The notes under the pieces were generated by a model that saw only the letters and a program-made list of their open reading frames with translations, made no database searches and had not been told where the DNA came from. The translations under genes were made by a program, and so were the position numbers. From the NCBI GenBank assembly GCA_945902075.1, contig CAMDMA010000021.1, forward strand, positions 1 to 56,262: 56,262 bases of DNA. The letters run 5' to 3'. This document shows positions 40,312-44,104 of the stretch, piece after piece (positions within the stretch are counted from its first letter, which is position 1; the number at the start of each line of letters is the position of its first letter). This stretch comes from Candidatus Kuenenia stuttgartensis (lineage in GTDB: Bacteria > Planctomycetota > Phycisphaerae > Phycisphaerales > SM1A02).

Positions 40312-41862
40312 ATGCTTGCGCTCGTCGTCGTGAGGGGTCCCGACAGAGGACGCACGTTCCCGTTGCCGGAACGCGAGCCGCAACTCGTCGGTCGCTCGAG
40401 CGAGGCACTCCATCTCGTGGACCAGACCGTGAGCCGTCGTCACGCGGAACTCACGCCAGATGGTCGCACATGGACCGTCCGCGACCTCGATAGCCGACAT
40501 GGGACATTCGTCAATGGTGTGCGCATCGCGGGAGCAGTTGCACTTCACGCCGGGGATCGGCTGCGCTGTGGCGACACCGAAATGCTTGCCATCCGCGAAG
40601 GTGAGACCGCTGTGCGCACGCATGACGATGGATCGGCGAGTGCCCTTCGCGTTGCAGATGCGGTCGGGGAGGATCCCACTTCAGACGCTGCTACGGTGAC
40701 CCTCGCGCTCGTCACGCGTGCAGCCGAGCCGACCGACACCGACGCGTTTCTCGCAGAGGCCGCGGGCGTTCTTGAGGCGCGGCTCGGCTCGTCGATCACC
40801 GCGCTGCGCGCAACTGATGCGCAACTCTCGTCATTTGTTGCGCTCTCGCATGCGGAGGGTCGCATCGCGCACGCACCGCTCGCGCTCGTGCGCCGCGCAA
40901 TCGACGAAGGAGAAATGCTCGCCACAAACGACGGCGCCTTCGCGCTGATTGTGCCTTTCGGCGCGATCGGAGCCACGCGCGGTGCGTTCATCCTCCACCG
41001 AACCGAACATTTCGCTCCAAGCGCCCGCGAGATCGCGTGTCTTGCTCGCGCTTCTGAGGTTGCTTCACTTGCCACCGCCGCGCGCGGTGTGCGGGATTCC
41101 CGCGGTCACCAGCATCGACTCGCACTGATCGGCGAGACGGTCGCTGCGCTCAGCCACTCGATCAAAAACATGCTCCAAGGCATGCGATTTGGCGCGGACG
41201 CCGTCGAGCTCGCACTCATCCGTGGGGAACTTGCCAAGGCGCAGGAAGGTTGGCCGATTCTTCATCGCAACCTCGATCGAATCCATGCGCTCGCGCTGAA
41301 CATGTTGGCGTGGGCAAAGGAGCGCCCGCTTGAGCCTGAAGAGTCTGACGCCAACGCGCTCCTTCGCGAGGTGCGCGAACTCCTCGCGCCAGCCGCCGGG
41401 CGTCGGCGTGTCGGGGTGGTGTTGGAGCTTGACGATGCCCTTCCGCCCGTCTCGCTTGACGCGCCCGCTGTCCATCAGGCGCTTATGAATCTCGTCCTCA
41501 ACGCCATCGAGGCTGCTCCGGAACGGGTGGGACTTGTTACCCTTGGCTCGCGCTACCTAGCACAGGGCGACGAAGTCCACCTCTCGGTGCGGGACAACGG
41601 CGCCGGCATCCCCGACGGAGTCCGCGCGCGTCTCTTTGAGCCATTCGTCTCCTCAAAGGGCCAGCGAGGGACCGGGCTTGGACTCGCGGTCGCCCGGAAA
41701 ATCGCGCTCCGCCACGGCGGTCGGCTTGAAGTCGCCAAGACTTCGGGAGCAGGAACCGAGTTTATTCTGGTACTCCCGGCAACAAGCGAAGGCGCAGATC
41801 CGGCCGAAACACGCGCGCCAAAGGGACTTCGGCCAGGCGAGTTCGGTTGGAAATTTGAGTAA
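40312..41862 (+). CDS. FHA-domain sensor histidine kinase
   Basis: The 516-residue soluble kinase has an N-terminal FHA domain (LVGRSSEALHLVDQTVSRRHAEL, then SRHGTFVNG; about 20-80), which binds phosphothreonine. A GAF-like region (about 130-255) comes next. The dimerisation helix has LSHSIKNMLQG (phosphoacceptor His282), and the HATPase_c domain has an N-box (NLVLNAIEAA), G1 (DNGAGIPDG), F-box (FEPFVSSK) and G2 (GTGLGLAVARKIA). No membrane segment is seen. FHA plus His-kinase suggests cross-talk between Ser/Thr phosphorylation and two-component signalling. No response regulator is adjacent; the three clpP genes follow. Confidence 0.92.
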   Translation: MLALVVVRGPDRGRTFPLPEREPQLVGRSSEALHLVDQTVSRRHAELTPDGRTWTVRDLDSRHGTFVNGVRIAGAVALHAGDRLRCGDTEMLAIREGETAVRTHDDGSASALRVADAVGEDPTSDAATVTLALVTRAAEPTDTDAFLAEAAGVLEARLGSSITALRATDAQLSSFVALSHAEGRIAHAPLALVRRAIDEGEMLATNDGAFALIVPFGAIGATRGAFILHRTEHFAPSAREIACLARASEVASLATAARGVRDSRGHQHRLALIGETVAALSHSIKNMLQGMRFGADAVELALIRGELAKAQEGWPILHRNLDRIHALALNMLAWAKERPLEPEESDANALLREVRELLAPAAGRRRVGVVLELDDALPPVSLDAPAVHQALMNLVLNAIEAAPERVGLVTLGSRYLAQGDEVHLSVRDNGAGIPDGVRARLFEPFVSSKGQRGTGLGLAVARKIALRHGGRLEVAKTSGAGTEFILVLPATSEGADPAETRAPKGLRPGEFGWKFE

Positions 41863-42087: not shown

Positions 42088-42738
42088 ATGCTTCCAACCC
42101 TCGACGCGCACCTACCGCACATCGTCAACTCGCTTCCCCCCGCCCGGCGCCACGAAGTCCTCAACTCCGTGAGCTACCAGCGCACGCGCGAGATGTCGAT
42201 TGACGAGCTTCTCCTCGAGAACCGCGTCGTCTTTCTCATTGGCGAGATCAACTACTCCTCCGCGGCGCGCGTGATGATGCAGATGCTCTACCTGGAGAAC
42301 CAGAAGAAGGGCCAGGACATCAACTTCTACATCAACTCGCCGGGCGGCTCGGTGGACGACACCCTCGCCGTCTACGACACGATGCAGTTCATCTCCTCGG
42401 ATGTCGCGACCTTCTGCATTGGCCGTGCATATTCGGGCGGCGCGGTGCTGCTCTCGGCCGGTCAACCTGGCAAGCGCACGATCCTGCCACACGCGAAGGT
42501 GATGATTCACCAGCCGCTTGGTGGAGTGACTGGTCAGACCACGGATATTCAGATTCAGGCTGAGCACATCAGCAAGATGAAGCGCACGCTCAATGAGATC
42601 CTCGCCCGGCACTGCAATGCGCCGGTCGAGCGCATCGCAAAGGATGTTGAGCGTGACAAGTTCTTTAGCGCTGAGGAGGCGAAGGCGTATGGCCTCGTCG
42701 ACGAGGTTGCCGTCTTCCCGGATAAGAGCAAGAAGTGA
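42088..42738 (+). CDS. clpP: ClpP protease subunit, diverged paralogue 1
   Basis: ClpP is the serine peptidase ring fed by ClpX/ClpA/ClpC. This 216-residue copy keeps the triad Ser116, His141 (VMIHQP) and Asp190 (ERDKFF), and the oxyanion-strand motif YINSPGGSV. The serine neighbourhood is GRAYSGGAV instead of the usual GxAASMG, a marked change beside the nucleophile. It lacks the usual [21 protein letters not shown]-terminus that forms axial loops, starting instead with a different helix (SYQRTREMSIDELLL). ATG 42088 gives normal length; the frame extends to GTG 41965 without conserved sequence. It overlaps the next clpP gene by GTGA. Confidence 0.92.
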   Translation: MLPTLDAHLPHIVNSLPPARRHEVLNSVSYQRTREMSIDELLLENRVVFLIGEINYSSAARVMMQMLYLENQKKGQDINFYINSPGGSVDDTLAVYDTMQFISSDVATFCIGRAYSGGAVLLSAGQPGKRTILPHAKVMIHQPLGGVTGQTTDIQIQAEHISKMKRTLNEILARHCNAPVERIAKDVERDKFFSAEEAKAYGLVDEVAVFPDKSKK

Positions 42739-43409
42739 TTCGATCGCGCGACCAGTACGGCGGCGCAGGCTCGCCGATGGCGGAGGACGACGACGATATT
42801 CCGTCGTTCGTTCCGTATGTCATCGAGTCAACCGGTGGTCGCGAGCGCCAGTGGGACATGTGGTCGCGGTTGCTCGCGGACCGCATTGTCATGTGCTCTG
42901 GCGAGATTCGCGACGATATGGCCAACTCGATCTGCGCACAGCTTCTTTATCTTGCCGCTGAGGATCCGGCCGCGGAAATCGCGATCTACATCAATGGTGC
43001 TGGCGGCAGCATTACTGCGGGTATGGCGATCATCGACACCATGAGGTCTCTCCCCGGTCCTGTCGCCACGTATGTTCTCGGCTGTGCTCCAAGCATGTCG
43101 AGCCTCATCGCCTGCTGTGGAACCAAAGGCCGCCGTTTCGCAACCCGTAACGCGTGGAATCTCATGCACCAGGGTCGAATCTCCGGCACGATCGAAGGGC
43201 AGAGCACCGATCTCGAGATTGAAGTGCGGCGCATGCTTGTGATCGAAGATCAATGCAACACGCTTTATGCGGAAATGACTGGTAAGACGAAGGAGCAGAT
43301 CGCTGCGGACTGTGACCGCGACCTCTGGCTCAACGCGGAAGAGATGCTCGCGTACGGACTGATTGACGCAATCATCACAAGCGCGCCGCTCGCACCGAAG
43401 CACGGCTAA
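42735..43409 (+). CDS. clpP: ClpP protease subunit, diverged paralogue 2
   Basis: The second ClpP is 224 residues with triad Ser120 (CAPSMSS), His145 (LMHQGR) and Asp196 (DCDRDLW). Two normally invariant sites are altered: the oxyanion-strand loop reads YINGAGGSI (usually INSPGG), and the residue after SM is Ser (usually Gly). The N-terminal segment (FVPYVIESTGGRERQWDMWSRLL) is recognisable but diverged. The GTG start overlaps the clpP1 stop; ATG 42777, which would shorten it by 14 residues, is an alternative. It probably assembles with one of the neighbouring copies. Activity cannot be judged from sequence. Confidence 0.92.
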   Translation: MIRSRDQYGGAGSPMAEDDDDIPSFVPYVIESTGGRERQWDMWSRLLADRIVMCSGEIRDDMANSICAQLLYLAAEDPAAEIAIYINGAGGSITAGMAIIDTMRSLPGPVATYVLGCAPSMSSLIACCGTKGRRFATRNAWNLMHQGRISGTIEGQSTDLEIEVRRMLVIEDQCNTLYAEMTGKTKEQIAADCDRDLWLNAEEMLAYGLIDAIITSAPLAPKHG

Positions 43410-43477
43410 GAGCACACGACTTCTACCCAACAAGATCAACAACGGGCGCCAGCGCCCTCAACCCATAGGTTCGCGCA

Positions 43478-44104
43478 ATGACCATCATTCCCATCGTCAT
43501 CGAGAAGACCGGCCGCGGAGAGCGCGCCTACGACATCTATTCGAGGCTGCTCAACGACCGCATCATCTTTCTCGGCGGCGCAGTCGGCGACCAGATGGCG
43601 AATCTCGTCGTCGCGCAGTTGCTGTTTCTCGCCAACGAGGACCCGCGCGCCGACATCTCGCTTTATGTGAACAGCCCCGGAGGCAGCGTGACCGCAGGTC
43701 TTGGCATCGTCGACACGATGAACTTCATCCCGTGCGACGTCTCGACCTACATCATCGGCTGCGCAGCGAGCATGGGCTCGGTCATCGCGTGCTCGGGTAC
43801 CAAGGGCAAGCGTTATGCGCTGCCGAACTCGGAGAACCTCATGCACCAGCCGCTGATCGGCGGCGTGCTCGAGGGCCAGGCCACCGACCTTGAGATTGAG
43901 GCTCGGCACATCCTCCGCATGCGCGACCAGCTCTACGAGATCTATTCGAAGGCCACCGGCCAGTCGAAGGAAAAGATCACTGAGGACTGCGACCGCAATA
44001 ACTGGCTCACCGCGAATGAAATGCTCCAGTACGGCCTCGTCGACAAGGTGCTGGAGAAGTTGTCGATGCCAAGTGCTGCCGTGAAGCCCAAGTCGGACGC
44101 CTGA
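43478..44104 (+). CDS. clpP: ClpP protease subunit, canonical-like paralogue 3 with Asn in the triad
   Basis: The third ClpP (208 residues) is closest to the standard sequence: [22 protein letters not shown] at the N-terminus, [16 protein letters not shown] (Ser98), LMHQPLIGG (His123) and [16 protein letters not shown]. The catalytic Asp position, in the usual ERD(R/K)F segment, reads CDRNNW, putting Asn174 where Asp is expected. Listeria ClpP1 is a known natural Asn-triad ClpP with conditional activity. A 68-base gap with a GGGCG/CGCCC hairpin precedes the ATG. It ends the clpP run. Confidence 0.95.

Follow-up and report, generated by a model that had tools for sequence, protein, structure and literature searches.

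Three diverged clpP genes, here called P1, P2 and P3, follow one another head to tail along the plus strand of the window (the whole 56,262-nucleotide stretch of planctomycete DNA that was analyzed), as had originally been predicted. We lean, with some confidence, towards reading them as a two-ring hetero-ClpP in which P3 would dock the motor, P1 would cut, and P2 would join or replace P3 and alter specificity. The usual view of ClpP is of a machine built from one or two kinds of subunit that prefers to cleave at hydrophobic residues. The distinct, conserved changes of each subunit suggest one mixed machine in some freshwater planctomycetes, with separate motor-holding and cutting subunits. 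A bolder proposal, doubtful as it stands, would be a three-subunit core with a proteasome-like division of labor: a Ser-His-Asn docking ring activated by its partner, a full-triad ring that does not dock, and P2 with a charged S1 pocket (Arg125, Glu146) that prefers residues beyond the hydrophobic ones. Hetero-ClpPs as a kind are already known. What appears unusual here, judging from the alignments, is an Asn-bearing docking subunit in several families and, second, an optional third subunit whose charged substrate pocket is fixed.

Locus and family assignment

P1, P2 and P3 cover PF00574 (cut-off 20.2 bits) almost end to end and are thus full-length members of the ClpP family; P3 also exceeds the cut-off of NCBIfam NF001368, 249 bits (Table 1). 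They are the only PF00574 matches found in the source assembly (3.3 Mb, 97% complete), and the block is proposed to encode the whole ClpP core of the bacterium as a hetero-oligomer. With the P2 start taken as the ATG at 42777, gaps of 38 bases (P1-P2) and 68 bases (P2-P3) separate the genes; an alternative upstream GTG at 42735 would make P2 overlap P1. The P1 start is backed by the aligned N-termini of relatives. Pairwise identity is 39.6% for P1/P3, 53.5% for P2/P3 and 31.8% for P1/P2. Promoter-like sites were not found at the block (0.8 expected), and the two terminator-like sites there (1.9 expected) are both on the minus strand.

Table 1. Features of the clpP block (42088-44104) and of one neighbor; positions are those of the window
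Feature	Position	Strand	Evidence or remark
clpP paralogue P1	42088..42738	+	216 aa; PF00574 236.7 bits
clpP paralogue P2	42777..43409	+	210 aa; PF00574 199.8 bits
clpP paralogue P3	43478..44104	+	208 aa; PF00574 248.0 bits; NCBIfam NF001368 291.7 bits
P1 nucleophile site Tyr-Ser-Gly-Gly (P3: Ala-Ser-Met-Gly)	42430..42441	+	alignment
P2 Asn-Gly-Ala-Gly-Gly replacing canonical Asn-Ser-Pro-Gly-Gly	42993..43007	+	alignment
P2 His-Gln-Gly-Arg replacing canonical His-Gln-Pro-Leu (P124G, L125R; S1 pocket)	43167..43178	+	
P3 Asn codon at catalytic Asp171 position	43997..43999	+	alignment
FHA-domain histidine-kinase-like neighbor (context, outside block)	40312..41862	+	FHA + HATPase_c (Pfam)

Residues are numbered, and sequences aligned, by reference to E. 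coli K-12 ClpP. Active-site and docking residues were counted in 79 P1, 29 P2 and 86 P3 rows (194 in total), after removal of the duplicate loci L074-L076 and of three P1 fragments from G001 and G005 that fell below 170 aa. All 194 rows retain Ser97 and His122, in line with the earlier claim for the three proteins of the window, so that none has lost these catalytic residues in the manner of a ClpR.

A non-docking subunit and a docking subunit

Departures of P1 had been predicted around the nucleophile and at the N-terminus, and both are borne out: the window P1 reads Y96-S97-G98 and its N-terminus differs from that of E. coli K-12 ClpP. Position 98, Met in the canonical Ser-Met, is Gly in 76 and Ala in 3 of the 79 P1 rows. 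The catalytic acid is Asp in 79/79 rows, which preserves the Ser-His-Asp triad. Positions 22, 82 and 114 are what we take to be docking residues, and F82 presumably belongs to the pocket that binds ADEP. Arg22 of the docking face is missing from all 79 P1 rows and likewise from 29/29 P1-like rows of a phylum sample (7 of these are the same genes as in the first set). Every P1 N-terminus aligned (14 + 29 rows) has another sequence in place of the canonical axial loop. Ala stands at position 189 in 42 of the 79 rows, the window P1 among them, but 29/29 P1-like rows of the phylum sample are hydrophobic there (Leu, Ile or Val), so that loss of the pocket at this position is not phylum-wide. As the alignments stand, the general docking difference between P1 and P3 is confined to the axial loop and Arg22. 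The AlphaFold model of P1 is poor (pLDDT 69.7) and was left unused. P1 is predicted from these residues to form the catalytic, non-docking ring.

P3 keeps Arg22 and Leu114 in 86/86 rows and Leu189 in 82/86, and its N-terminus is canonical, 21 residues of it aligning with 21 residues of the E. coli protein. With axial loop and pocket intact, it is the predicted ATPase-docking ring. The departure of P3 that had been predicted lay at the catalytic acid, and Asn indeed stands at the Asp171 position, giving the window P3 a Ser-His-Asn site. Across the P3 rows the acid is Asn in 63/86 and Asp in 23/86, the latter belonging to families f5 and f6 and to genus g60. Asn-bearing P3s come from families f1-f4 of the order; Asn was further seen in three genomes of family f9, which belongs to another order of the same class, and in 11/11 additional family loci from further genera. 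The docking subunit thus carries Asn in four of the six families of the order that were read and in one family of another order. Asp was further seen in L131-L138 and in 14 phylum-level loci. P3 does not look like a decaying gene, because Ser and His are constant (86/86) even though 63 of the same rows carry Asn at the acid position. This constancy speaks for sites that still function, perhaps only with P1 holding the active state. Asn triads occur in rare ClpPs, and the third triad residue is described as not absolutely essential in the ClpPs of Pseudomonas plecoglossicida (PMC12900304), so the Asn of P3 may matter less than assumed. Asn docking subunits offer a natural test of whether the Asp is required for catalysis itself or serves to switch assembly.

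P1 and P3 occur together far beyond the window. ClpP is present in 60 of 61 genomes (the source genome and 60 relatives), and P1-type and P3-type genes are adjacent in 55 of these 60, the source included; three of the pairs reach a contig end. The genes lie apart in 5/5 genomes of family f6. In the phylum sample, P1 was matched in 147/148 genomes. The best 29 of the 147 loci, besides the window, comprise 24 with P1-like and P3-like genes and 5 with P1 alone; 11 of these 29 genomes overlap with the first set, and of the 18 new ones 4 share the class of the source while the other 14 share no more than its phylum.

Comparison with known hetero-ClpPs

The pair has the gene signature of an asymmetric ClpP1P2, namely diverged paralogues of which one (P3) has and the other (P1) lacks the axial loop and Arg22. 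In Mycobacterium and Streptomyces, too, two clpP genes form one operon (PMC3280978) and a single subunit docks the ATPases (PMC6889138, PMC9765437). The mycobacterial ATPases are reported to dock one ring only (PMC6889138), and the Streptomyces account assigns catalysis to ClpP1 and ATPase docking to ClpP2 (PMC9765437). Unlike the planctomycete pair, Streptomyces ClpP1 and ClpP2 are both Ser-His-Asp in that account, and the extra copies form a separate clpP3clpP4 operon (PMC9765437), whereas the third planctomycete gene lies inside the pair. Chlamydia trachomatis ClpP1P2 likewise has one subunit without an axial loop and another that binds ClpX (PMC6773864, PMC9823225). However, the chlamydial genes occupy separate loci, both triads are Ser-His-Asp and there are two subunits only (PMC6773864). 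Mutating the equivalent of E. coli Leu189 is reported there to impair work with ClpX in the docking subunit only (PMC6773864).

The closest precedent for the Asn is Listeria monocytogenes, in which an Asn-for-Asp subunit is also paired with a Ser-His-Asp subunit, and ClpP1 with Asn172 is reported to be active only together with ClpP2 (PMC5361862). Changing that Asn to Asp reportedly lets Listeria ClpP1 assemble into active tetradecamers by itself. The roles are distributed differently. The Listeria Asn subunit is described as lacking the N-terminal chaperone-binding motif (PMC5361862), whereas the planctomycete Asn subunit P3 keeps its docking features, so P3 is not a ClpP1 of the Listeria type; it is the planctomycete Ser-His-Asp subunit, P1, that lost them. 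Also unlike Listeria, no canonical ClpP was found in the source genome besides P1-P3. Cyanobacterial ClpP3/R and plastid ClpPR resemble the block in having more than two ClpP-type subunits, which there form mixed cores (PMC7966870), but ClpR is without the catalytic triad, whereas the three planctomycete proteins all keep Ser and His. A literature search returned no open-access title or abstract on a planctomycete ClpP pair or triple; most subscription papers fall outside such a search.

Assignment of P3 to the docking ring and of P1 to the catalytic ring follows from their bearing the same signs as these studied two-subunit systems. In the model that we favor, ring composition, docking side, activity and specificity being its predictions, a P3 ring would dock the ClpX and ClpC motors, and an opposite P1 ring, to which motor docking would be impossible, would supply full Ser-His-Asp triads. 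The Ser-His-Asn sites of P3 would probably be active only or mainly when the partner ring holds the active state, as in Listeria ClpP1. P2, derived from P3, would in four genera join or replace P3 subunits in the docking ring and contribute active sites whose S1 pocket is polar and charged, so that cleavage would be widened or retuned. The original prediction had been of a mixed two- or three-part peptidase. Its two-part form is well supported by inference, because docking features are lost from P1 and kept in P3 as in ClpP1P2; the three-part form is plausible, and weaker, because P2 is optional.

P2, an optional subunit with an altered S1 pocket

P2 was found in at least 29 of 181 family genomes (the best 30 loci were read directly, the rest judged by score or from readings of the pair), and more diverged P2s may exist elsewhere. 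These belong to four genera, with at least 3/16 genomes in g1 (the genus of the window), 3/4 in g17, 11/19 in g41 and 12/14 in g60. Wherever a copy was seen (29 genomes), it is flanked by P1 and P3; in 13 of the 16 genomes of g1 it is not found between them. The order P1-P2-P3 recurs in 28 of 37 loci returned from a named genome collection, most of which bear titles of planctomycete MAGs, with lakes, Baikal among them, as the origin of several. Eleven further family loci, of 12 fetched from additional genera, have P1 and P3 only.

The catalytic Ser, His and Asp of P2 are each present in 29/29 rows. Around them, the window P2 reads N-G-A-G-G for N-S-P-G-G, P-S-M-S-S round the Ser, and HQGR for HQPL. 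The loop of the oxyanion strand, to which its departure had been ascribed, is truly changed in the window but is not the most constant difference: position 65 is Gly in 17/29 rows, and Ser-Pro is kept in the 12 P2s of g60, so that NSPGG is normal in 12 of the 29. That place belongs to HQGR (29/29). The NSPGG and ASM changes are probably later ones, since they are absent from the 12 g60 P2s. Fixed in 29/29 are Gly124, Arg125, Glu146 and Cys149. For comparison, position 124 is Pro in 86/86 and position 125 Leu in 85/86 P3s, and position 146, Glu in all P2s, is Lys in all P1s and Arg in all P3s. Positions 124, 125 and 149 correspond to Pro125, Leu126 and Met150 of Mycobacterium tuberculosis ClpP1, which a docking study lists among the residues lining S1 (PMC5404560). 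Arg125 and Glu146 might form a salt bridge within the P2 pocket. P2 thus offers a natural case of a re-engineered S1 pocket with fixed, testable residues, and a comparative series is at hand: the pair without P2, the pair with P2, and genus g60, which has Asp in P3.

Docking features of P2 are mixed. Arg22 is kept in 29/29 rows, F82 is lost in 28/29 without one constant replacement, and L114 is lost in 10/29, the window P2 among them. From the losses of F82 and L114, P2 may dock motors poorly. The handle is P3-like, equal in length or, in g60, one residue shorter, and with such a handle P2 would most simply join or replace P3. An AlphaFold model of P2 has a normal ClpP fold (pLDDT 82; handle residues 135-142 below 50), its best PDB match being M. 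smegmatis ClpP1, 6pbu.

Clp partners and genomic neighbors

The source genome encodes one IGF-bearing ClpX, one ClpC-type and one ClpB-type ATPase, and ClpS; the ATPase labels were assigned from sequence within the PF10431 matches. The ClpC-type ATPase carries an FGF tripeptide, which we take to be its ClpP-docking loop. An alternative reading has P1 and P3 form a housekeeping protease and P2 a second, separate one for special substrates, either homomeric or built together with P1. In its favor, cyanobacteria are described as running ClpP1P2 with ClpX and ClpP3R with ClpC (PMC7966870), and P2 has a full triad and a constant Arg22. We consider this unlikely, as P2 never leaves the interval between P1 and P3 in the copies seen, its docking pocket is partly eroded, and ATPases are no more numerous where it occurs: PF10431 matches number 2-3 in the 8 P2-bearing genomes tested and 3-4 in 7 without P2.

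Sufficient sequence ahead of P1 was available in 71 loci, and 29 of these have an FHA/histidine-kinase-like gene on the same strand, no more than 400 bases upstream of P1 (four of the 29 are second copies of a genome); in many loci an opposite-strand holA follows beyond it. Upstream of the block, g1 and g17 have the kinase, g41 has holA directly, and g60 has neither. The FHA-domain histidine-kinase-like neighbor is a possible regulator of Clp. Eight neighbors were scanned with Pfam and no biosynthetic gene was recognized among them (two of the eight had no match). This counts against a role for P2 in regulation or self-protection, in which it would weaken the effect of natural products aimed at ClpP, or limit activity, while specificity changed little. 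Such a role could be read into the changes in the S1 pocket and, in part, the ADEP pocket (F82), and into the optional, patchy occurrence of P2; a mechanism of ADEP self-resistance is the topic of a Streptomyces paper (PMC12607617). Since the F82 replacement is varied and the S1 changes are fixed, we hold it to be quite unlikely, and prefer a P2 that alters specificity within the docking ring.

Phylogeny and selection

A tree built from 78 planctomycete rows and E. coli, spanning several orders and lineages outside the class, separates 40 P1 rows from 38 P3/P2 rows by one branch (SH-aLRT 100). Because one fully supported branch splits all rows, the divergence of the paralogues P1 and P3 is an old one across the lineages read. 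P2 forms a single clade among the P3s of the family (bootstrap 100, SH-aLRT 99; column 171 masked), and is, on these trees, a later offshoot of P3 that arose once. The copies are therefore diverged, as first supposed; recent local duplication of three clpPs is ruled out by the trees together with the distribution, P2 keeping a fixed order in four genera. With column 171 masked, an AU test rejected a tree that unites the Asn-P3s of f1-f4 to the exclusion of P2 and g60 (p = 0.021). This points to an origin of P2 from an Asn-bearing P3, with Asp regained afterwards, and it disfavors an ancestral Asp171 in P2, a result that rests on the long branch of P2 and on a clade named after the first tree was seen.

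Mapped on a P1+P3 tree of 71 genomes, from which eight near-duplicates were excluded, the presence of P2 requires at least six changes, three of them forced by well-supported branches, so that P2 has been lost or moved more than once. P2 could be a horizontal newcomer in genus g1, but the unrooted branching order of its genera (g1, g17 / g41, g60) is just as compatible with inheritance followed by losses, and g1, g17 and g41 all have it at one and the same site on the holA side. In the window and in G010, P2 has a lower third-position GC than P1 and P3; in G004 it does not.

P2 is under purifying selection. Its dN/dS is at most 0.09 in nine of ten genome pairs, ratios that are rough because dS exceeds 1 in eight of the ten; in the tenth pair, G188/G194, dN/dS is 0.246 for P2, 0.266 for P1 and 0.197 for P3. 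A neutral or slowly decaying duplicate retained by chance would account for the patchy record of P2, including its absence from the pair in most genomes of its own genus, but it is very improbable given these ratios, the constancy of the triad and of the P2-specific residues, and the single origin and long persistence of the gene.

Further ClpP-like genes in other genomes

Third PF00574 matches in other genera were considered as possible hidden P2s; of the 11 genomes searched, two were known P2 carriers. In six genomes of g55, g40 and g43, the third match is a distant protein of about 500 aa (74-89 bits) and not P2. A protein of this size with a distant ClpP-like domain occurs in G133:C17, G134:C4, G142:C14, G128:C8, G078:C69 and others, matching at about 82-91 bits in most, over profile positions of about 15-158; it is present as well in g41 genomes without a detected ClpP block. 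An intact block was not found in eight g41 genomes (G066, G070, G075, G077, G079, G081, G082 and G083) or in G151 of g18. These nine genomes have three PF10431 ATPase matches in seven cases, two in G066 and one in G075, and G079 reaches 95% completeness with about 50 contigs. Either real loss of ClpP or contig drop-out could explain them.

Extra copies were also seen. G118 holds two P1/P3 pairs, G182 a second pair, and G094 an extra P1-like piece. The pairs of G118 are on separate contigs (G118:C2 and G118:C6; contamination 5%), and may reflect a second copy or a mixed bin. Finally, two records titled as other bacteria, L104 (Limnohabitans) and L126 (Chitinophaga pinensis), carry a planctomycete P1-P2-P3 block and are probably mislabeled or contaminated MAGs, and L139, titled Oscillospiraceae, has a single ClpP.
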